From positions 1 through 64,000 of the forward strand of contig NZ_LSEF01000073.1 of assembly GCF_001641695.1 (NCBI RefSeq): DNA of 64,000 nucleotides, given 5' to 3'. The translations under genes were made by a program, and so were the position numbers. The notes beneath the pieces were generated by a model. The model was not told where the DNA came from, did not search any database, and saw only the letters and a program-made list of their open reading frames with translations. Positions within the stretch are counted from its first letter, which is position 1, and every line of letters begins with the position of its first letter. This document shows positions 14,284 to 58,504 of this stretch, one piece after another. This DNA comes from Bradyrhizobium neotropicale (GTDB taxonomy: Bacteria; Pseudomonadota; Alphaproteobacteria; Rhizobiales; Xanthobacteraceae).

Positions 14284-14618
14284 GCGTAAAACACTCCGAA
14301 TGCGCTATCAGCGATAACAGATACGCCTTCAGATGGTTTCTGCTCGAATGGTTAAGGGCAATCCTTCCGATCGAGGCGGCCCTGCCCTCTGTCACAAATC
14401 TGCAAAGCGCCCTTGTGATACTGGCGGCTTGGCCGCCGCTCTCTTCGGTTGAGAAGCATTTTCAAATGGCTGGAGCTGTCGATCAGACGTGCATCCGGCT
14501 GCCCGAACCAGCGCGCTGGCTACTGCCGAAAACCGCTAGCGAGTTCATTTTGATTGCTAGCTCAGATGAACTACCGTGGGGCTCATTTCAAGAATTAATC
14601 ATATTTTAGGAGCGACCA
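14284..14618. other. Intergenic region, no gene recognised
   Basis: About 335 bp between the small membrane ORF and the 77-residue gene. It is somewhat richer in A and T near 14540-14610, consistent with a promoter for the downstream gene. No specific element was identified. Confidence 0.4.
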
Positions 14619-47718: not shown

Positions 47719-48507
47719 CTATTTCGGCTTCTTGAAGTTCACGGGCAGGCTGAAGGCGAACTGATCATCCGTGAGCTCGGCCGGCGGAACCGGCACCGGA
47801 TCCGAACGGCGCACCATGGCTACGGCCTCATTGTCGAAAACGGTGTCGCCGGAGGACTGGGTCACATCGACCGAGACGACATTGCCGCGGCGGTTCAACA
47901 CCAGGCTGAGTACGACGGACGCCGTCTTGCTCTTCTCCTTGGGATAGCGCTTGTGAAGCTCGAAATAGGCGCTGATCCTCTTGCCCCACTCGGCCGTCAG
48001 CTTGCGAATGTCCTTGCCGATGCCCCGGTTCGGTGCAGCGGCCTTCTCATCCTCGCGCGCGTTCTCATCCAGCGCCTGCTTCGCCGACTCCTGGGCATTC
48101 GGCATTTCCTCGACGGCCTGGGTTTCAACCTTGGCCACCTTCGTGTTTTCCTCAACCGGCTTCTTGGAGTCGTTCTCGGTGACGACCCGGTCCGGGTCTT
48201 CGGCTTCCTGAGGCCGATCCTTCGGTAGATCGGTCTCCTTCACCTCGGCCTGCTGCTGCATTTGCTGCGGCTGGAACTGCGAGGCCTCACTGTCCGGGCC
48301 CGGCGGCAGATCCGTTTCCGGAAGCTTCGGCGAGGTCATCTCGACGGCGTATTCCGCACCATTGGCCCCGAGGCCATCGTCACCGTCGTCGGCCCGCAGG
48401 TTCGCCAGCGCCAGCGCGGCACCGCCAAGATGCAATGCGAGCGCGGCCACCGCGGCCAGAATCCACAGCCGCCGGGATGGTTTCACCTCGATCAAAGGAT
48501 CAGACAT
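47719..48507 (-). CDS. tonB: TonB energy-transducing protein
   Basis: A 262-residue periplasmic-spanning protein. One N-terminal span (about 13-33) anchors it. A long acidic linker rich in Pro, Glu and Gln follows. The C-terminal TonB fold includes YFELHKRYPKEKSKTASVVLSLVLNRRGNVVSVDV and RRSDPVPVPPAEL. It transmits the proton-driven energy of ExbBD to outer-membrane receptors. ATG 48507 is chosen; the open frame extends back into exbD. It is the last gene of the iron-uptake operon. Confidence 0.92.
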   Translation of the reverse strand: MSDPLIEVKPSRRLWILAAVAALALHLGGAALALANLRADDGDDGLGANGAEYAVEMTSPKLPETDLPPGPDSEASQFQPQQMQQQAEVKETDLPKDRPQEAEDPDRVVTENDSKKPVEENTKVAKVETQAVEEMPNAQESAKQALDENAREDEKAAAPNRGIGKDIRKLTAEWGKRISAYFELHKRYPKEKSKTASVVLSLVLNRRGNVVSVDVTQSSGDTVFDNEAVAMVRRSDPVPVPPAELTDDQFAFSLPVNFKKPK

Positions 48508-48517
48508 CGCGCTGCCA

Positions 48518-48985
48518 TCAGGGCTGGGGCGCCCCTTGGGACGGCCCAGCCGCCGCAGGAGCCGCTTCGAGCGCCACCAGCTTGACCCGAGAATAGCCGC
48601 CGGCACGCAGGATTTCCATCACGCCCATCAGCTCGCCATAAGGCACGGCACGATCGGCGCGCAGGAACACATATTTGTCCTTGCTCATGTCGGCCATCCC
48701 GTTGAGGGAGCCGATCAGCTCGGTTCGCTTGACCGGATTCTCTCCGATCGCCAGCGTCAGGTCGGATTTGATGCTGACATAGGTCGGCTTGTCCGGCTTC
48801 TTTTGCGGCGTCGAGCTTGAAGTCGGCAGGTCGATCGGCAGGTCGACCGTCGAAAGCGGTGCAGCGACCATGAAGATGATCAGCAGCACCAGAATGACGT
48901 CGATGAACGGCGTGACGTTGATGTCATGCGTCTCGGAGAAGTCCGCATCGTCGTCGAGGTCATTGTCTGCGATCGAGGCGCCCAT
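48518..48985 (-). CDS. exbD: ExbD biopolymer transport protein
   Basis: A 155-residue protein. The N-terminal span INVTPFIDVILVLLIIFMVAAPL contains the essential Asp of the proton channel. The periplasmic domain ends in GELMGVMEILRAGGYSRVKLVAL, as usual for ExbD. It lies between exbB (3-bp gap) and tonB (10-bp gap), which shows tight co-expression. The C-terminal Ala/Pro tail is short. Confidence 0.94.
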   Translation of the reverse strand: MGASIADNDLDDDADFSETHDINVTPFIDVILVLLIIFMVAAPLSTVDLPIDLPTSSSTPQKKPDKPTYVSIKSDLTLAIGENPVKRTELIGSLNGMADMSKDKYVFLRADRAVPYGELMGVMEILRAGGYSRVKLVALEAAPAAAGPSQGAPQP

Positions 48986-48988
48986 GGT

Positions 48989-50005
48989 TTACTCCGCCGC
49001 GCGCGAATGCATGGTGCCGTGCGTGCGATCGAGATCGCGCGAGAGAAGCCGGGCCGAAGCGCCGGAGGCGCGGCTGACCAGCTCGAGATAGCTCTTCGTC
49101 ACGCGCGAGAAGTGATTGTAGACGATGACCGCCGGGATGGCAGCGACGAGGCCGATCGCGGTCGCCAGCAGTGCTTCGGCGATGCCGGGCGCGACGACCG
49201 CGAGGTTCGTCGTCTGCGACTTCGAGATGCCGATGAAGCTGTTCATGATGCCCCACACCGTGCCGAACAGGCCGACGAAGGGCGACGTGGAGCCGATGGT
49301 CGCCAGCACGCCCATGCCGATGCGGATGCGCCGCTGCTCCGCGCGCACGATCTCGGCGAAGCTCGAGGCCGCGCGCTCCTTGATGCCGGCATCGCTGGAA
49401 AGACCGGCCGACATCCTCGCCTCGCGCAGCGCTGCCGCGAGGAAGGACGGCAGTATCCCCTGCTTGGTGCCGAGCGCCATCTGCGCTTCAGCGAGCGAAC
49501 GCGCCTCCGCAATCTTCTTCAGCGCCGAACGGAGCTTGCCGGAGGCAACCGACAGCTCGATCGACTTCGCGATGAAGACGGTCCAGGTCACGAGCGAGGC
49601 GAAGGCGAGCCCGATCATCACCGCCTTCACGATGATGTCCGCGGACATGAACATCACCCAGGGCGACAATTCCTTCATGACCGGCCCAGCCGATTTCTGC
49701 GCGCGGTCGGCGGACGCCACCTCGCCGGCTGCCGGACCAGCATCGGTCGAGGACGCGGCGGGCGCGGCGGCCGGCGTGGAGACAGCCGGCGTCGTGGCCG
49801 CGGGGGCCGCGGTCGATGGCGCGACCGGCGCCACCGCGCTTGGCTGCGGCGCCACGGGAGCCGGAGCGGCCACGGGCCGCTGAGCCGCCGCTGGCGCCGG
49901 CCCCGCCGGCTGGGTTTGTTGCTGGGCAGATACAGGGGATGCGAGCCACGTCGCCGCCATCAGCACGGCTGCGGCAAGGCTTGCTTGGAGAGATGTGGTC
50001 TTCAT
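48989..50005 (-). CDS. exbB: ExbB biopolymer transport protein with extended N-terminus
   Basis: A 338-residue proton-channel subunit. A signal peptide (about 1-27) precedes a Pro/Ala-rich periplasmic segment to about residue 105, then three spans and the MotA/TolQ/ExbB core ([47 protein letters not shown]). The long N-terminal extension is common in alphaproteobacterial ExbB. Its ATG overlaps the PiuC stop by 4 bp, so translation is coupled. Confidence 0.93.
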
Positions 50006-50691
50006 ACTTCTGCCCAGTAGCGAATGAGATTGTGATAGATGCCCGTCAATTTGACCGTTTCGGGATCGTCGCGCCCGAGCCGTTCCACCAGCGCCTGGAT
50101 GGCGGTGTCGAGGTCAAAGATCATGCTGCGGGCGTGGTCATCCCGTATCATGCTCTGAAGCCAGAAGAAAGACGCAACCCGGGCCCCCCGGGTCACCGGC
50201 GTCACGAGGTGCAGGCTGGTCGAAGGATACAGCACACAGTCGCCCGCCGGTAACTTCACTTCATGCGAGCCGTAGGTGTCCTCGATCACAAGTTCGCCAC
50301 CGTCGTACTCTTCCGGCTCAGCCAGAAACAGTGTGACCGACAGATCGGTTCGGATGCGAAGGCCGGTCAGGCGGTCGCCGCGGATCGCGTTGTCGACGTG
50401 CAGGCCGAAATGATGGCCGCTGCTCGCCGCATAGCGGTTGAACAGCGGCGGGAAGATCTGCAGCGGGATCGCCGCGGCGAGGAAGCGCGGGTGCGACGTC
50501 AGCGCCGAAATGATGCGGTTGCCGAGCTTGCGCGCGACCTCGCTGTCCGGCGGCAACTGCTCGTTGCGCTTGACCATTGCTGACTGCGCGCCCGCGGTGG
50601 AACGGCCGTCTTCCCATTCGCTGGCGTCCATGATGCGGCGGAAGTCCGCTACATCATCCTTGCTCAGGACGCCTTCTATGCATGTCAGCAT
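50002..50691 (-). CDS. PiuC-type Fe(II)/2-oxoglutarate-dependent hydroxylase (PKHD type)
   Basis: A 229-residue cytoplasmic dioxygenase. The iron ligands H98-x-D100 and H161, and R171 for 2-oxoglutarate, are in place. The family (YbiX/PiuC) is regularly encoded next to catecholate siderophore receptors such as Fiu and PiuA, and is thought to modify or help release iron from siderophores. The exact reaction is unproven. It starts 21 bp after the receptor stop and overlaps exbB by 4 bp. Confidence 0.9.
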
Positions 50692-50711: not shown

Positions 50712-53252
50712 TCAGTAGCGCGCCGAGATCACCAGATAGGCGGCACGCCCTGGGGCCTCCAGCACGAACGGCGCAGCGCTCTGGTACAGCGCGTCGTAGT
50801 AGCGCTTGTCGAAGATGTTGTTCACGAACAGCTTGGCCGTCCAGTTCTTGTTGATCTTGGCTTCCGCGAACACGTCGAAACGCCAATAGCTCGGAATCGA
50901 TGTGCCCTGGTTGGCCGCGAGGAACGTGCCACCATAGATCTTCGAGCGATAGACGGCCTGACCGCCAAGTTCCCACGTGTCGGTCAGCTGGTACTTGCTG
51001 AGCATACTGAATGACTGATGCGCCACGTTCGCGAGGGGCAGTCCAACGTTCGTGGTGTAGAGGGTCGTGTTGGCCGGCGGGATCAGCGACTTTGTTACTT
51101 CCGACTGCATCAGGACGAGACCGCCGAAGACACTCCACTTGTCGGTGATCTTGCCGCCAACTTCAAGGTCAATGCCGCGAATGCGATATGCCGCGCCCGC
51201 GCTTATGCAGGAGACATTCCCTGACGTAGCCGTGTAGGGGCATGCTGCAGTCGCAGTGGCTGCCGTGACGTTACGCGACTCGCGGGCATTTTCCTTTTCC
51301 GTCTGGAAGAGCGCGGCTGTCACCAGCAGACGCCGGTCGAACAGCTCCCACTTGGTACCAAGTTCAATCGCCTTGTTCTTTTCCGGACCGAATATCTGAG
51401 GGGGGGCGCCATTCAACACCGGCGCAAGGCCTCCGTACTGAATGCTTGTGCCGTCAAATTCGGCACCGACCGGGTTCGACGAGGTCGCGTAGGCCGCGTA
51501 AACGCTTCCATTCGGCAATGGCTTCAGGGTGACGCCAAGATTGAAGTTCGGCATCCCGTAGTCTTGTTGTTGCTGGCCGAAAGCGTTCAGGGTTCCTCCA
51601 TTGACCGAACCCCAACCGTTCACCTTGATATTATAGTCGTCGTAACGGACACCACCGTTCAGGATCAGCAGGTCGTTATAGTTGGCCGTATCCAGCGCGT
51701 AGACACTCTTGGTGTCGATCCGAATGTTTGTCGGCTTACCTGTAAGGCCGCCGGGGATTCCGAACGGAAGGTTCGTGTATTGTGGATAGAACACGCTAAC
51801 GCCAGACAATGAATTGCCGGTGAAGCCACCAGGAAGCGCTTCCGAGGCAAGGCCAGTATAGCTGTCGATGGACGACGTTTCGTGATCATATTCAAAACCG
51901 GCGAGCGCCGTGTGCTTAAACCCGACACCATCGTTAAACTTGTAGGTCGCCTCCGTCTGGTTGGCGATCACATCCGTTGCCTGATAGCGGCTTTGCGGAT
52001 TGGCAGTAAGAGTCGATGCTGAGAGTGGAGTTTGGATCTGCGGATTTTCCGGGAGCGTTCCGATGTAGTTTTGAGTGGAGTGAGAATCCCGGAACCGGTT
52101 GGTGAGAAGCAGATCGGGCGTGACCTGCACCTCGGCATTGAGCGAGCCGATGTCCTGGCCAGTCCGATAGAAGTCGCGATTGACGAATCCGTACCAGTTG
52201 TTGCGGTTGGAGCCGAAGTCCGGGAACGGGCCACCGGCGGTGCTCGCCGTGCTCGGCCGGTAGTACGGCACGCCGAAGTCCGGCAGGCCGGTCAACTCGG
52301 TATGGATGTAGCCGGCGGTGATTTTAACTGCATCCACCGGCTTCCAGGTTGTGGCAACGAACGCGCCATCGCGATTGTCTTTCACATAGTCTCGACCAGC
52401 GACACCGGCATCCTGGAACAGCCCGCCTGCACGCACCGCCCAGGTCGGATCGATCACCTGGTTGACGTCGAGGACCACGCGCTTGGTGCGATCGGTCCCA
52501 AACGTGGTGTCCATGTTGTAGAAGTTGCCTGCTGTCGTTGCCTGCTTGGTGACGATGTTGATCGCGCCGCCGGCCGTGCCGCGACCGGCGAAGGACGACG
52601 CCGGACCGCGCAGGATCTCGACCTGTTCGGTGAAGAAATTCTCGCGCACGCTGACGCCGGCATCGCGCACGCCGTCGATGAAGATGTCGTTGCGGGCATC
52701 GAAGCCGCGGATGAAGAAGCGGTCGCCAAACGCGTTGCCCCCCTCGCCCGTGCCCAGCGTTACGCCGGCCGTGCTGAGAATCGCCTGCTTCAGTGTCGTG
52801 GCGTTCTTGTCCTCCAGCACGTCCTTTGTGAGCACTGTGATTGATTTGGGTGTATTGAGGATCGGCTCGGGAAATTTACCCGACGCCTGCACGCGGTTGG
52901 CCATGTAGGGCGCTGCCGGATTCGCGTATGGATCGGCATCTGGCGCAACAGCATTTGCGGACGGCGCCTGCGCCGTCTGCTGGCGCTGTGCTGCGCGCCG
53001 CAGCGCGGTGCGGGCGCGGATCTGCTCGGGTGACGGCTTCGAGGCCGCAGGACGCGGACGCTCCTTGGGCGCATCGACCGTCACCGGGGGCAGGCTCGAC
53101 TGCTGCGCCTGCGCTCCGGTTGAAACCGATGCGACCGCGATCAGGCTCGCAACGGCGGAGACCGTCTTGCCCGTTGCAGCGTCGAAATTGTTCTCGAAAG
53201 ATTTTCTCGCCGCAGCCGAACGCAATGACCGCGGTGCCCGAACGCCACCCAT
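50712..53252 (-). CDS. TonB-dependent siderophore receptor (Fiu/PiuA-like)
   Basis: An 846-residue outer-membrane receptor. The signal peptide ends near VSTGAQA, and a Pro/Arg-rich N-terminal stretch follows. The plug domain spans about 120-250 (TPKSITVLTKDVLEDKN, FFIRGFDARNDIFIDGVRD, VEILRGPASSFAGRGTAGGAINIVTKQ). The 22-strand barrel ends in a C-terminal aromatic residue (AYLVISARY). Adjacent PiuC suggests catecholate siderophores. ATG 53252 has gggg 7-8 nt upstream; the open frame to 53372 ends at the regulatory boxes, so the shorter start is preferred. Confidence 0.92.
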   Translation of the reverse strand: MGGVRAPRSLRSAAARKSFENNFDAATGKTVSAVASLIAVASVSTGAQAQQSSLPPVTVDAPKERPRPAASKPSPEQIRARTALRRAAQRQQTAQAPSANAVAPDADPYANPAAPYMANRVQASGKFPEPILNTPKSITVLTKDVLEDKNATTLKQAILSTAGVTLGTGEGGNAFGDRFFIRGFDARNDIFIDGVRDAGVSVRENFFTEQVEILRGPASSFAGRGTAGGAINIVTKQATTAGNFYNMDTTFGTDRTKRVVLDVNQVIDPTWAVRAGGLFQDAGVAGRDYVKDNRDGAFVATTWKPVDAVKITAGYIHTELTGLPDFGVPYYRPSTASTAGGPFPDFGSNRNNWYGFVNRDFYRTGQDIGSLNAEVQVTPDLLLTNRFRDSHSTQNYIGTLPENPQIQTPLSASTLTANPQSRYQATDVIANQTEATYKFNDGVGFKHTALAGFEYDHETSSIDSYTGLASEALPGGFTGNSLSGVSVFYPQYTNLPFGIPGGLTGKPTNIRIDTKSVYALDTANYNDLLILNGGVRYDDYNIKVNGWGSVNGGTLNAFGQQQQDYGMPNFNLGVTLKPLPNGSVYAAYATSSNPVGAEFDGTSIQYGGLAPVLNGAPPQIFGPEKNKAIELGTKWELFDRRLLVTAALFQTEKENARESRNVTAATATAACPYTATSGNVSCISAGAAYRIRGIDLEVGGKITDKWSVFGGLVLMQSEVTKSLIPPANTTLYTTNVGLPLANVAHQSFSMLSKYQLTDTWELGGQAVYRSKIYGGTFLAANQGTSIPSYWRFDVFAEAKINKNWTAKLFVNNIFDKRYYDALYQSAAPFVLEAPGRAAYLVISARY

Positions 53253-53372
53253 TTCAAGCCCCACCACATGAAGACGATTGATCGCATTGTGACAACGCGA
53301 CGCGTCGTTGGTATCGAGCGGGATAGATGGGGTCAACGTGACGACGGCCGCGATGCGGTTGAATCGCTCCAT

Positions 53373-53389
53373 TTCAAAACGATTCTAAA
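53373..53389 (-). promoter_or_regulatory. Irr/ICE-like box 1 upstream of the receptor gene
   Basis: The plus strand reads ttcaaaacgattctaaa. It shares CG(A/G/T)TTCTAAA with boxes at 53408 and 53432. The pattern approximates an inverted repeat TTTAGAA...TTCTAAA like the iron control element bound by Irr in Bradyrhizobium (recalled consensus). Confidence 0.55.
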
Positions 53390-53407
53390 CTTGTCGACGC
53401 CTTGCAA

Positions 53408-53424
53408 TTTGAAACGGTTCTAAA
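53408..53424 (-). promoter_or_regulatory. Irr/ICE-like box 2 upstream of the receptor gene
   Basis: tttgaaacggttctaaa is the best-conserved of the three boxes, with near-symmetric TTTGAA and TTCTAAA halves. It starts 35 bp from box 1 and 24 bp from box 3. Iron-responsive control of the receptor-PiuC-ExbBD-TonB operon is the likely meaning. Confidence 0.6.
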
Positions 53425-53431
53425 GTTGTAG

Positions 53432-53448
53432 TTTTTAAGCGTTCTAAA
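53432..53448 (-). promoter_or_regulatory. Irr/ICE-like box 3 upstream of the receptor gene
   Basis: tttttaagcgttctaaa keeps the right half (GCGTTCTAAA) but a degenerate left half. It lies 184 bp upstream of the chosen receptor start, at the distal end of the cluster. Confidence 0.45.
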
Positions 53449-53564
53449 CTGCACTTGAATTATTTATTGAGCCGCGCTCGTTTCGCCAGTTGTTCGCGCG
53501 CTCACGCGGCAAATGCAGAGGGCGTATCGCATCTCTCGCTTCGGCGCCTCTCATCTTGCAGCGA

Positions 53565-53804
53565 TCAATCGCTGCTCGGCGGCTTCATCAACGAGAACAA
53601 TTCGTCGACGGTTCGCTGCGCGGCCGCACGGACACGATCGGTGTTGTCCATGCCGGCGATGTTGACGCCGTTCACGACGGCTTTGATCTCGTCGCGAAAG
53701 TCGGTGAGGAAGCGCAAGGGATCGCGCTGCTCGTTGGCGACGCGCGCGATCAGGCCCGTGATCAGAATCTGACACGCGATCATCTTGCCGTTCAGCTCGT
53801 CCAT
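53565..53804 (-). CDS. Small protein of unknown function upstream of the siderophore receptor
   Basis: A 79-residue soluble, mostly helical protein (MDELNGKMIACQILITGLIARV..., RVRAAAQRTVDELFSLMKPP). There is no signal peptide. ATG 53804 has gggag 7 nt upstream and is preferred over the frame start at 53858. It precedes the receptor on the same strand and has its own Irr-like box 75 bp upstream, so it may be iron-regulated. I do not recognise a family. Confidence 0.65.
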   Translation of the reverse strand: MDELNGKMIACQILITGLIARVANEQRDPLRFLTDFRDEIKAVVNGVNIAGMDNTDRVRAAAQRTVDELFSLMKPPSSD

Positions 53805-54188
53805 TCTGCGCTCCCGTTGTGGCGGCGCTGATATGAACGAGGCCGATTTTCCTGACAACCGAAACGCTGCGGGAGCGATTTAGAACCGTTCTCGCCAAGG
53901 CCATGCCGGCGACTTCGCGCGCGCCGCCTGCACTCGCGCAGCGCGTTGCACGAGACCATGCGCGGGCATTTCAGATCGGCTGCCGGCCGTTTGCGCGCTG
54001 AAAATGCAGCGCTGCACGCTGTCGCGCCAGGCCGCCCGAAGCCGGTGCAAAGCTTTCCAATTGTTTAGGATTCTCAACCGATAGTGCTGTTTACACTGGA
54101 ACTTGGCGTGTATTATACAAGCGCGCTGGAACCCTACGATTGCCTCACAATTCGTAGTTTTGGGCATACGAGCCGATAACGAGCCGAA
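53805..54188. other. Divergent intergenic region
   Basis: About 380 bp between the 79-residue gene and the RND adaptor gene. It contains the Irr-like box at 53879. The segment near 54060-54130 is A+T richer and probably holds the efflux promoter. No gene is supported. Confidence 0.5.
53879..53895 (-). promoter_or_regulatory. Irr/ICE-like box 4 upstream of the 79-residue gene
   Basis: tttagaaccgttctcgc has a perfect left half (TTTAGAAC) and the central agaac-cg-ttct symmetry, with a weaker right end. It matches the boxes before the receptor gene in register. Confidence 0.55.
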
Positions 54189-55361
54189 ATGAAAAAATCA
54201 CGGCCGATCCTCTGGATTTTGATCATCGCGGCCGTGGGCTCCGCGGGCTATTACGGGTGGCAGCGATACTCCGCTGCTGAGGCCGGAAAAGCCCAGACCG
54301 CACAGAAGGGTCCGGCGCGGGCACCCGCCATTCCTGTGAGCGTTGCGCCGGTCGAGAAGACGGATTTTCCGGTCTATTTGACGGGTCTCGGCACGGTTCA
54401 GGGCTTCAACACGGTGCAGGTCCGGACCCGCGTGGATGGCCAGATCGACAAGATCGCCTTCACTGAGGGCCAGATCGTCAATCAGGGCGATCTCCTGGTC
54501 GAAATCGATCCGCGGCCGTTCCAGGCCGTGCTCGACCAGGCCAAGGCCAAGAAGCAGCAGGACGAGGCCAACCTCGCCAACGCCAATCTCGACCTGCAGC
54601 GCTATACCAAGCTCGGCGAGTTCGCGACGCGGCAGCAGACCGATACCCAGCGCTCCACCGTCGCCCAGCTCACCGCCCAGATCGCCGCCGACGAAGCCGC
54701 GATCGCTAACGCCCAGACCCAGCTCGACTATACCCAGATCAAGGCGCCGATCACCGGCGTCGCGGGCCTCCGCCAGGTCGACATCGGCAACATCGTCAAC
54801 GCCGTTACACAGACCGGGATCGTCACGATCTCGCAGATCGAGCCCATCTCGGTGATCTTCACGGCGCCGGAGGATCAGCTTCCCTACATCAGCGAGGGGC
54901 AGAAGGCCGGCGCACTCAAGGTGATCGCGCTCACCACCGACGGCAAGAAGACGCTTGCGGAAGGCAAGCTCGCCGTCATCAACAACCAGGTCGATACGAC
55001 CAGCGGAACTATTCGTCTCAAGGCGGTGTTCGACAACAAGGACCACAATTTGTGGCCGGGACAGTCGGTTTCGACACGGCTGCTGGTGCGCACCCTCAAG
55101 GATGCGACCGTGGTTCCGGATGATGCGGTCCAGCATTCGACCAATGGCCTGTACGCATATACCGTCAACCAAGAGAACAAGGCCGAGCTGCGCAAGATCA
55201 AGGCCAGCTACTCCATCGACGGACGTTCCGTCGTTGATGAAGGGCTGACGCCAGGGCAGCAGGTGATCACCGGCGGTCAATTCAAGGTACAGCCGGGAAG
55301 CCTCGTCACCACGACCGTGGCGAGTTCGGATCCCGGCCAGAACAAGGTTCGACAGGAATGA
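54189..55361 (+). CDS. RND efflux periplasmic adaptor (MdtA-like)
   Basis: A 390-residue membrane-fusion protein. An N-terminal anchor (about 7-24) precedes a lipoyl-like hairpin domain (FNTVQVRTRVDGQIDKIAFTEGQIVNQGDLLVEID), an alpha-helical hairpin (about 110-165) and a beta-barrel domain with ITGVAGLRQVDIGN. It links the inner-membrane pump to an outer-membrane channel, which is not encoded here. Its stop overlaps the pump start (ATGA). Substrates are probably drugs or small hydrophobic compounds. Confidence 0.92.
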   Translation: MKKSRPILWILIIAAVGSAGYYGWQRYSAAEAGKAQTAQKGPARAPAIPVSVAPVEKTDFPVYLTGLGTVQGFNTVQVRTRVDGQIDKIAFTEGQIVNQGDLLVEIDPRPFQAVLDQAKAKKQQDEANLANANLDLQRYTKLGEFATRQQTDTQRSTVAQLTAQIAADEAAIANAQTQLDYTQIKAPITGVAGLRQVDIGNIVNAVTQTGIVTISQIEPISVIFTAPEDQLPYISEGQKAGALKVIALTTDGKKTLAEGKLAVINNQVDTTSGTIRLKAVFDNKDHNLWPGQSVSTRLLVRTLKDATVVPDDAVQHSTNGLYAYTVNQENKAELRKIKASYSIDGRSVVDEGLTPGQQVITGGQFKVQPGSLVTTTVASSDPGQNKVRQE

Positions 55362-58300
55362 CCGAGGGCGGGATTTCGGCACCTTTCATCCGTTATCCCA
55401 TCGGCACCTCGCTGCTGATGGCCGGCATCCTCTTTGTCGGTCTCGTCGCCTATCCCCTGCTGCCCGTCGCGCCGCTGCCGCAGGTGGACTTCCCGACCAT
55501 CCAGATCACCGCGAATCTGCCCGGCGGCAGTCCCGAGACCATGGCCTCGTCGGTGGCGCAGCCGCTCGAACGGCAATTCGCCCAGATTCCCGGCATCGCC
55601 CAGATGACCTCGACGAGCTATCTGGGCACGGCGTCGATCACCATCCAGTTCGACCTCAACCGCAGCATCGACGGCGCCGCAAACGACGTGCAGGGCGCGA
55701 TCAACGCGGCGAGCGGCCAGCTGCCCAAGAACCTGCCCTCGCCGCCGACCTACCGCAAGGTGAACCCCGCGGACGCGCCGATCCTGCTATTGTCGGCGAC
55801 CTCGGACACCCTGCCACTCACCAGCGTCAGCGACGCGGTCGACGCCCAGCTTGCCCAGCAGATCAGCCAGCTTTCCGGCGTTGCGCAGGTCTTCATCGGC
55901 GGTCAGCAGAAACCGTCCGTCCGCGTCCAGATCGATCCCGCGAAACTCGTCGCCAAGGGCCTGTCGCTCGAGGATGTGCGTAGCCAGATCGCGATCGCCA
56001 CGGTCGACAGCCCCAAGGGCAACATCGACGGCGAGAAGCGCGCCTTTACGATCTACGCCAACGACCAGCTCACCCAGTCAAAGGACTGGAACGACGTCAT
56101 CATCGCCTATCGCAATGGGGGCCCCTTGCGGATTCGGGACATCGGCCAGGCCGTCACCGGTCCCGAGGACGCCAAGCAGGCAGCCTGGGCCAACGGCAAG
56201 CGCGGCGTGTTCCTGGTGGTGTTCAAGCAGCCCGGCGCCAACGTCATCGAGACCGTCGACCGGATCAAGGCAACGCTGCCCCGGCTCGTCGCGGCGATCC
56301 CGCCGGCCATCAAGATCGAGGTCATCAGCGACCGCACCACGACCATCCGCGCCGCGGTCGAGGACGTCCAGTTCACGCTGCTTCTGACCATTGCCCTCGT
56401 GGTCATGGTCATCTTCATCTTCCTGCGCAGCTTCTGGGCGACCGTGATTCCGACTGTCACGGTTCCGCTGGCGCTCCTTGGCGCCTGCGCCCTGATGTGG
56501 GTTTTTGGCTATTCCTTGGACAATCTCTCACTGATGGCGCTGACGATCGCGGTCGGTTTCGTCGTCGACGACGCCATCGTGATGCTCGAGAACATCACGC
56601 GCTATATCGAGGAAGGCGCTTCCCCGCTGGCCGCCGCCTACAAGGGGTCGAAGGAAATCGGCTTCACCATCGTGTCGATCAGCGTCTCGCTGGTCGCCGT
56701 GCTCATCCCGTTGCTGCTGATGGGCGGCATCATCGGACGCCTGTTCCGCGAATTCGCCGTCGTGCTGGCGATGACGATCTTCGTCTCGATGTTCGTGTCG
56801 CTGACGCTGACGCCGATGATGGCCTCACGCTTCCTGCGCGCGCATGGTGAAGTGACCCACGGCAAGTTCTACCAGTGGAGCGAACGCGCCTTCGACGCGA
56901 TGTTGCGCGGCTACGAATACGTCCTCGATCACGCCCTGAGCTGGCGGCGCACCACGCTCACGATCTTCTTCGCGACACTGGCCCTGTCGGTCTATCTGTT
57001 CGTCCTGATCCCGAAAGGCTTCTTCCCGCAGCAAGACGTCGGCCTGATCACCGCGACGTCGGAAGCCTCCCAGGACATCTCGTTCGCCGAGATGCAGCGG
57101 CGGCAGGTCGAGCTCGGCAAGGTCGTGATGGCCGATCCCGACGTCGCCTCGATCGCAATGAACATCGGCGGCAGCGGCCGCGCCGGCAACAACGGCAACA
57201 TGTTCATCACGCTGAAGCCGCGCGACCAGCGCCAGGCCTCCGCGCAGCAGATCATCGGCCGGCTGCGCCCGCAGCTCGAGAAAGTGTCAGGCGCCCGCCT
57301 CTACATGCAAGCTGCCCAGGACGTGCGGCTCGGCGGCCGTCCGACCCGTACGCAGTTTGAGTTTACCCTGCAGGATGCCGATCTCGGCGAGCTCAACGAA
57401 TGGGCGCCAAAAATCCTCGCCAAGATGCAGACGCTGCCGCAGCTGCGCGACGTCGCGACCGACCAGCAAACGCAGGGCACAACCGTCCAGCTCAAGATCA
57501 ACCGCGACACTGCCTCGCGCTACGGCATCCAGCCGCAGCTGATCGACGACACGCTCTACGACGCCTTCGGCCAGCGCCAGGTCGCCCAGTACTTCACCCA
57601 GCTCAACAGCTATCACGTGATCCTGGAAATCCTGCCGGAGATGCAGGGCAATCTGGATTCGCTCAACAAGCTCTACCTGAAGTCGCCGCTGACCGGCGAC
57701 CAGGTGCCGCTGTCGACCTTTGCGACCTGGACCACCGATCCGGTCCGGCCGCTCTCGATCAGCCACCAGGGCCAGTTCCCGGCAATCACGATCAGCTTCA
57801 ACCTCGCGCAGGGCGTCGCGCTCGGTCAGGCCACCGAGGCGGTGCAGAAGGCAATGGCTGATCTGGGCGCGCCGGCGACGCTCAATTCGAGCTTCCAGGG
57901 CACCGCGCAGGCATTCCAGCAGTCGCTCGGCACCGTGCCGCTGCTGATCCTCGCGGCGCTTGTCGTGGTCTATCTGATCCTCGGCATCCTCTACGAGAGC
58001 TACATCCATCCGATCACGATTCTGTCGACCCTGCCCTCGGCCGGCGTCGGAGCACTCTTGATCCTGATGGCGGCCGGCTTCGACTTCAGCCTGATCGCGC
58101 TGATCGGCATCATCCTGCTGATCGGCATCGTGAAGAAGAACGGCATCATGATGGTCGACTTCGCCATCGCCGCCGAACGCGACGAGCACAAGACGCCGGA
58201 GGAATCGATCCGTCAGGCCGCGATCCTGCGCTTCCGCCCGATCATGATGACGACGATGGCGGCGTTGCTGGGCGGCGTGCCCTTGATGCTCGGCCACGGC

Positions 58301-58504
58301 ACCGGAGCCGAAATCCGCCAGCCGCTCGGCTACGCCATGGTCGGCGGCCTGATCGTCAGCCAAGCGCTGACCCTGTTCACCACCCCGGTCGTCTACCTCT
58401 ATCTCGACAAGTTCTCCAACCTGTTCTCGAGCGGGGGCCGTTCGGGCGATGGCGACGGGGACGAGGTGGCCGAGCACGGCACCGTCAAGGAAGCCGCAGA
58501 GTAA
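55358..58504 (+). CDS. RND efflux pump, inner-membrane subunit (MdtB/MdtC-like)
   Basis: A 1048-residue AcrB-family pump. It has the usual two-fold pattern of 12 spans and two large periplasmic loops. The proton-relay aspartates lie in GFVVDDAIVMLENI (about residue 405), and the second-half partner segment is LLIGIVKKNGIMMVDFAI. The sequence is closer to MdtB/MdtC than to AcrB. It is coupled to the adaptor gene by a 4-bp overlap. The C-terminal tail is acidic and Gly-rich. Confidence 0.94.
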   Translation: MTEGGISAPFIRYPIGTSLLMAGILFVGLVAYPLLPVAPLPQVDFPTIQITANLPGGSPETMASSVAQPLERQFAQIPGIAQMTSTSYLGTASITIQFDLNRSIDGAANDVQGAINAASGQLPKNLPSPPTYRKVNPADAPILLLSATSDTLPLTSVSDAVDAQLAQQISQLSGVAQVFIGGQQKPSVRVQIDPAKLVAKGLSLEDVRSQIAIATVDSPKGNIDGEKRAFTIYANDQLTQSKDWNDVIIAYRNGGPLRIRDIGQAVTGPEDAKQAAWANGKRGVFLVVFKQPGANVIETVDRIKATLPRLVAAIPPAIKIEVISDRTTTIRAAVEDVQFTLLLTIALVVMVIFIFLRSFWATVIPTVTVPLALLGACALMWVFGYSLDNLSLMALTIAVGFVVDDAIVMLENITRYIEEGASPLAAAYKGSKEIGFTIVSISVSLVAVLIPLLLMGGIIGRLFREFAVVLAMTIFVSMFVSLTLTPMMASRFLRAHGEVTHGKFYQWSERAFDAMLRGYEYVLDHALSWRRTTLTIFFATLALSVYLFVLIPKGFFPQQDVGLITATSEASQDISFAEMQRRQVELGKVVMADPDVASIAMNIGGSGRAGNNGNMFITLKPRDQRQASAQQIIGRLRPQLEKVSGARLYMQAAQDVRLGGRPTRTQFEFTLQDADLGELNEWAPKILAKMQTLPQLRDVATDQQTQGTTVQLKINRDTASRYGIQPQLIDDTLYDAFGQRQVAQYFTQLNSYHVILEILPEMQGNLDSLNKLYLKSPLTGDQVPLSTFATWTTDPVRPLSISHQGQFPAITISFNLAQGVALGQATEAVQKAMADLGAPATLNSSFQGTAQAFQQSLGTVPLLILAALVVVYLILGILYESYIHPITILSTLPSAGVGALLILMAAGFDFSLIALIGIILLIGIVKKNGIMMVDFAIAAERDEHKTPEESIRQAAILRFRPIMMTTMAALLGGVPLMLGHGTGAEIRQPLGYAMVGGLIVSQALTLFTTPVVYLYLDKFSNLFSSGGRSGDGDGDEVAEHGTVKEAAE

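Follow-up and report, generated by a model that had tools for sequence, protein, structure and literature searches.

A polarised row of half-perfect ICE-like boxes, in helical register with a conserved -35 element, at a receptor operon promoter predicted to be activated by Irr in Bradyrhizobium

To our knowledge, the promoter architecture of activation by Irr, as opposed to repression, is little understood. The consensus ICE is a 7-3-7 inverted repeat, TTTAGAA-N3-TTCTAAA. Several imperfect copies of this repeat precede a receptor operon in a 64,000-nucleotide stretch of Bradyrhizobium neotropicale DNA (contig NZ_LSEF01000073.1; hereafter, the window), and the question raised by this locus is how such copies could be read at one promoter. 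The reading favoured here is that three boxes and a degenerate unit, P, are imperfect ICE-type Irr sites that probably activate the receptor-piuC-exbB-exbD-tonB operon at low iron. Earlier reports describe Irr as activating or repressing depending on the location of the ICE (PMC7762939), TonB-dependent receptors as activated by Irr (PMC3772312), and B. japonicum Irr as a repressor of bfr, mbfA, and acnA, with an affinity for mbfA and bfr more than 200 times tighter than for other targets (PMC4902296).

A preliminary description of the window had placed four 17-bp Irr/ICE-like boxes at 53373, 53408, 53432, and 53879, and all of them are present at these starts (Table 1). Against the 14 defined positions of TTTAGAA-N3-TTCTAAA, the three receptor boxes have two mismatches each and box 4 has three, with one complete half in every box. 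On the gene's strand, boxes 1-3 read TTTAGAA, then CGC, CCG, or TCG, and then the degenerate halves TTAAAAA, TTTCAAA, and TTTTGAA, respectively. The complete half of each receptor box is the gene-distal one, so that boxes 1-3 all point in the same direction; box 4 has the opposite polarity, its complete half facing the gene for a 79-residue protein. This shared direction, the degenerate unit before the promoter, and the phasing considered below go beyond the preliminary description.

Table 1. Coordinates of the boxes, promoter elements, and genes in the window.
Feature	Position	Strand	Sequence and remarks
Box 1 (distal)	53432..53448	-	TTTAGAACGCTTAAAAA on gene's strand (TTTTTAAGCGTTCTAAA on + strand); left half complete, right half degenerate; counterpart in orthologues
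Box 2	53408..53424	-	TTTAGAACCGTTTCAAA on gene's strand (TTTGAAACGGTTCTAAA on + strand); 24 bp after box 1
Box 3 (proximal)	53373..53389	-	TTTAGAATCGTTTTGAA on gene's strand (TTCAAAACGATTCTAAA on + strand); 35 bp after box 2
Unit P (degenerate)	53358..53372	-	ATGGAGCGATTCAAC in window, often CTGGAnCGATTCAAG in orthologues; begins 16 bp after box 3; putative function
-35 element	53331..53336	-	TTGACC; 53 bp from first base of box 3, 52 from TTAGAA
Weak -10 region	53308..53315	-	GATACCAA on gene's strand; TA 17 bp after TTGACC; CGATA conserved
TonB-dependent (siderophore) receptor	50712..53252	-	846 aa; relatives at 74 loci
PKHD-type Fe(II) dioxygenase (PiuC/YbiX type)	50002..50691	-	
exbB	48989..50005	-	
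exbD	48518..48985	-	
tonB	47719..48606	-	Start uncertain
Box 4	53879..53895	-	GCGAGAACGGTTCTAAA on - strand (TTTAGAACCGTTCTCGC on + strand); upstream of 79-residue gene
-35 of 79-residue gene	53853..53858	-	TTGTCA; 17 bp later CATATC (53830-53835)
79-residue gene	53565..53804	-	237 nt plus stop; no family found

The boxes are more numerous here than chance would give. Exact TTTAGAA or TTCTAAA halves occur four times in the 64 kb, always within boxes 1-4, with 0.93 expected and 2 of 100 shuffles reaching four. The 17-mer at up to three mismatches matches five times in the window (0.18 expected; five reached in 0/100 shuffles), the fifth match, at 14449, lying away from the receptor locus. Across the 8.67-Mb genome, the same pattern is found at 43 places and its reversed control at 78, which is no enrichment, and a single match with three mismatches is therefore weak evidence. 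The case thus rests on clustering, as four boxes in 523 bp compare with 0.0026 expected at the genome's rate, and on conservation.

Boxes 1-3 stand upstream of an iron-gene operon on the minus strand that comprises a TonB-dependent receptor, a piuC-type hydroxylase, exbB, exbD, and tonB. Its description as a siderophore-receptor operon is borne out by Pfam plug and barrel domains above their cut-offs, while the NCBIfam siderophore-receptor models match only below theirs. The closest relatives of the receptor are from Bradyrhizobium, with a best identity of 92%. The longest reading frame for the receptor (886 aa) begins at an ATG at 53372, directly beside the box at 53373; the ATG at 53252 (846 aa) is the likelier start, given the conserved -35/-10 pair that separates the two. 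Downstream of box 3, orthologues conserve TTGACC (or TTGACG or TTGATA), followed in most of them by CGATA about 14 bp later. A generic promoter scan returned no sigma-70 site at the receptor promoter, which has a poor -10. For the RND pump genes nearby (54189-58504), an identity as ExsFG was rejected, because the two genes overlap here whereas PMC10760861 gives a gap of 74 nt between exsF and exsG.

Conservation of the boxes was followed in the upstream regions of 67 orthologues and the window, 68 regions in all, in which the interval from -260 to -100 was scanned for halves. These counts leave out three loci in which the receptor start is missing (L050, L056, and L087), three distant ones (L091-L093), and L073, which shows no box and whose start is misplaced because its match extends into an adjacent receptor gene. 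Complete halves in the 68 regions number 129 in one direction and none in the other. The 62 box-bearing orthologues, mostly Bradyrhizobium, hold 187 boxes, with three boxes in 31 loci and four in 18. Neighbouring boxes are most often 23 bp apart (81 of 125 pairs); the remaining pairs are separated by 12 bp (16 pairs), 22 bp (11), 16 bp (4), 35 bp (4), and a few further values. From box 2 to box 3, most orthologues have 23 bp, versus 35 bp in the window, and the right half of their box 2 is mostly TTTCAAA, as in the window. Of 146 genomes of the genus, 89 match a strict tandem pattern and none its reversed control. The array of the window is a looser variant, and its own genome fails this pattern, because box 2 and box 3 are 35 bp apart and box 1 ends in TTAAAAA. 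A looser tandem pattern, TTTAGAA-N8-32-TTTAGAA, was set aside, as about 64 of the 146 genomes (counted by eye) match its reversed control, versus 96 matching the pattern; in the window's genome it matches twice, both times at the receptor array, and the control does not match.

The boxes are also conserved at positions by which they were not chosen. In 27 non-redundant orthologues of standard geometry, the information content of the boxes is 1.65-1.76 bits per position, versus 0.39 in the upstream flank. These loci, which do not include the window, were picked for TTAGAA at three places and for TTGA[CT], and the box averages are therefore partly a product of construction. The right halves, unselected, carry 1.52, 1.84, and 1.72 bits per position. 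That the boxes are chance AT-rich matches devoid of function, as the 43 genome-wide places against 78 for the control might suggest, is scarcely credible in view of their clustering, the conservation of unselected positions far above the flank, and the 89 of 146 genomes against none for the control. The earlier view of the sites as dense is sustained and extended, as a large part of the genus conserves the array and, of 47 genera sampled from the family, 6 have its proximal part.

Some relatives have dispensed with the boxes. The BTAi1 group (L075, where upstream sequence is limited to 193 bases, L077, L079, L080, and L082) accounts for five of the 68 regions and has no TTAGAA box. A piuC-type gene adjoins the receptor at all five loci (tblastn), and Irr is present in all four BTAi1-type genomes tested (8/8 of the genomes tested overall). 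Judged from these sequences, the group is an apparent natural loss of the array with the operon kept, and box control seems dispensable, because receptor, piuC-type gene, and, in the four genomes, Irr persist where the boxes do not. Variation in the other direction is also seen: in L026, L027, L029, L030, L058, and similar loci, one more box, placed 12 bp ahead of box 1, produces overlapping TTAGAACGnTT units. One locus with a Bradyrhizobium-like receptor and array, L047, is titled Frankia sp. RB7 and is probably mislabelled.

The distance between the boxes and the promoter is nearly fixed. From TTAGAA to the -35 element it is 52 bp in 54 regions, 53 bp in four, 62 bp in four, and 41 bp in one, covering all 63 box-bearing regions (window included). 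In L070, one of the four at 62 bp, a TTGACA is also present 13 bp nearer than the TTGACC counted. A search of 296 genomes of the family, with 40-69 bp allowed, found matches in 43 genomes of six genera and none for the control. At the 30 loci measured from this search, the distance is 52 bp (23 loci), 53 bp (1), or 62 bp (6), and a reading frame with the receptor's N-terminus follows in 29, L180 being the exception. The steps between these distances, 10-11 bp, correspond to about one helical turn. Class I activated promoters, of the CRP type, have an activator site upstream of the -35 at distances that differ by helical turns. The same geometry is found here, with a site upstream of the -35 and distances that differ by about helical turns, from few independent events. 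The changes in spacing may go back to as few as two ancestral insertions or deletions, and no probability is put on the phasing for this reason. Assuming a 17-bp spacer (to the TA of the -10) would put the centre of box 3 at about -81.

Between box 3 and the -35 element lies unit P, with an information content of 1.58 bits per position, versus 0.39 in the upstream flank (the same 27 orthologues, window excluded). Several features suggest that P is a degenerate unit of the Irr type. Box 3 is tandemly duplicated over 16 bp in L066, which sets P in register with it; a second receptor of the window's genome has a box followed by a GATTCAAG element (CTTAGAACGATTCAACACTAGAGGGATTCAAG) at the same spacing as box 3 and P; and the 37 bp from the start of P, taken as a 17-mer, to its -35 equal the distance from box 4 to TTGTCA. 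Against this assignment, the left half of P is poor, and L025, L047, and L067 are without P. Among 297 sampled genomes of the order, a strict pattern of box 3 and P matched three, all from the window's genus, with 0/286 in other families; this pattern misses the window itself and other genera that share the promoter. Separately, a GTGTTGC element lies between P and the -35 (e.g., upstream of L064 and L067), is also present in L140, and recurs at both kinds of receptor promoter.

The right half of box 3 complicates the assignment. In many orthologues it is TTTTGAT, unlike an ICE and yet conserved, and a second factor at the stretch from this half to P is possible for that reason. In its fuller form, this alternative limits Irr to the distal boxes and has a second regulator, or the RNA polymerase alpha subunit, bind the conserved stretch that runs from the right half of box 3 across P and reads TTTTGATCTKGAnnnATTC in many genomes. 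The divergence of this half from those of boxes 1 and 2 would fit such a site, as would three loci of another genus (L185, L186, and L188) that have box 3 and P with no other TTAGAA in the preceding 140 bases. It is nevertheless judged unlikely, since the ICE-like box 4 shares the 37-bp distance of P to the -35, the L066 duplication places P in register with box 3, and the second receptor combines a box with GATTCAAG at equal spacing. An FNR/FixK box is TTGAT-N4-ATCAA, and many orthologues have a resemblance to it, TTGATCTGG, between box 3 and P. This candidate was rejected, as the sequences compared do not conserve its ATCAA half, which is absent in the window (TTGAAATGGAGCGA).

The same genome holds sites and regulators with which the receptor boxes can be compared. 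Its only two perfect palindromes lie before bfr and mbfA, both well-known targets of Irr, close to the start codons, and they share the half-site of the receptor boxes and have a spacer with CG. Imperfect ICE-like sites precede bfd and a class I fumarase (three mismatches) and aconitase (two mismatches); these three genes were named by inspection of the sequence and not by family assignment. Among 13 plug-domain hits, five have an ICE-like site (up to three mismatches, -450 to +200 of the predicted start), versus 0.042 expected from the genome-wide rate, and multiple sites are confined to the receptor studied here. A home-made matrix scores boxes 1-3 at 26.5-28.3, box 4 at 14.1, the mbfA and bfr sites at 21.8-27.4 over both strands, and the bfd, fumarase, and aconitase sites at 12.4, 11.1, and 5.3; having been derived from orthologous boxes (window excluded) with TTAGAA columns fixed, it favours the boxes by construction. 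Irr is encoded (212 bits, NCBIfam cut-off 150) and has GCPWHD, which we take to be its heme motif. A second Irr paralog (G000:C80:26545-26934; L018/L201) scores 172.7 bits, above the NCBIfam cut-off, with no GCPWHD motif visible, and a Fur-like protein is encoded as well. As to the Irr/ICE-like nature first ascribed to the boxes, the likeness holds in the half-site and CG spacer shared with the perfect bfr and mbfA sites and in the presence of an Irr gene; their standing as Irr sites stays at the level of prediction.

These comparisons bear on which protein reads the array and with what effect. Another member of the Fur family, either Fur or the second Irr paralog alone, might be the reader in place of the GCPWHD Irr, as both are encoded in the genome. 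The boxes, however, share their half-site with the ICEs of bfr and mbfA, which makes such a reader improbable overall; nothing separates the two Irr paralogs, and either may read the array. Alternatively, the boxes could be Irr sites with a repressive effect like that at bfr and mbfA, or with repression and activation combined. PMC3413700 has Irr repressing under iron depletion in the species studied, and the perfect sites of this genome lie near the start codons of bfr and mbfA. The receptor boxes, in contrast, lie upstream of the conserved -35 and not over it, and receptors are described as Irr-activated in PMC3772312, so repression, alone or combined with activation, is considered very unlikely. 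What the geometry favours first is activation from a position ahead of the -35.

We infer Irr binding, activation over repression, weak affinity, and the role of P as an Irr unit from sequence features. In the proposed activation mechanism, Irr dimers would be stable at low iron and would occupy the array, which precedes the -35 and is helically in phase with it. This would be class I activation, with bound Irr bringing RNA polymerase to a promoter whose -35 is fair and whose -10 is poor. When iron is present, heme-dependent degradation of Irr would let transcription fall. Several weak sites would give a response that follows the level of Irr, and their graded or cooperative filling is plausible.

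A broader reading, offered tentatively and with somewhat less than even confidence, is that a polarised and helically phased row of half-perfect sites lets Irr, a member of the Fur family, work as a class I activator. The conserved core (box 3, P, and the -35), found in several genera, would have been extended in Bradyrhizobium by added boxes, mostly at a 23-bp pitch, tuning the response to falling iron; full palindromes of high affinity, as at bfr and mbfA, would repress, and half-perfect arrays would activate. If this is true, one regulator reads two site grammars. The difference between the full palindromes of bfr and mbfA and the half-perfect receptor sites could also offer a reason, in sequence, for the reported 200-fold spread of Irr affinities. 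Conservation of the array and its fixed promoter phasing make Irr activation directly testable.

Known systems share only some of these features. With the Irr/ICE regulon of Bradyrhizobium japonicum (diazoefficiens), the locus has in common the half-site, the iron-gene neighbours, an Irr with the presumed heme motif, and perfect ICEs before bfr and mbfA, and positive control of receptors by Irr is likewise described in PMC3772312 and PMC7762939. Unlike the described regulon, it has half-perfect sites that all point one way (three here, three or four in most orthologues), a pitch of mostly 23 bp in orthologues, a helical phase with the -35, and a degenerate unit. The literature searched held no account of such an array; primary papers on ICEs and receptors, which may describe multiple sites, lay outside that search. 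The likeness to class I promoters of the CRP type lies in a site upstream of the -35, distance steps of about whole turns, and a weak -10, whereas the regulator here would be of the Fur family with several sites, and any contact with the alpha-CTD is putative.

Box 4 would place the 79-residue gene under the same iron control. Its distance to the -35 (TTGTCA) is 37 bp in 24 of 62 loci and 36 bp in one; two variants have 32 bp, and 35 loci are unmatched by the expression used. The 79-residue frame is encoded at 62 of 72 loci (window included), and the protein is 72-94% identical in the 17 relatives chosen for alignment. Searches of Pfam (with a longer frame) and NCBIfam found no family for it, and its structural model is poor (pLDDT 72.7, pTM 0.45), with helices only.

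Arrays of complete halves are also seen before a different TonB-dependent receptor in other Bradyrhizobium (L141-L143), where two TTTAGAA boxes lie 27-32 bp apart upstream of the gene (e.g., L142, 2426-2457). L140 has the same two-box array, with no receptor reading frame seen after it.
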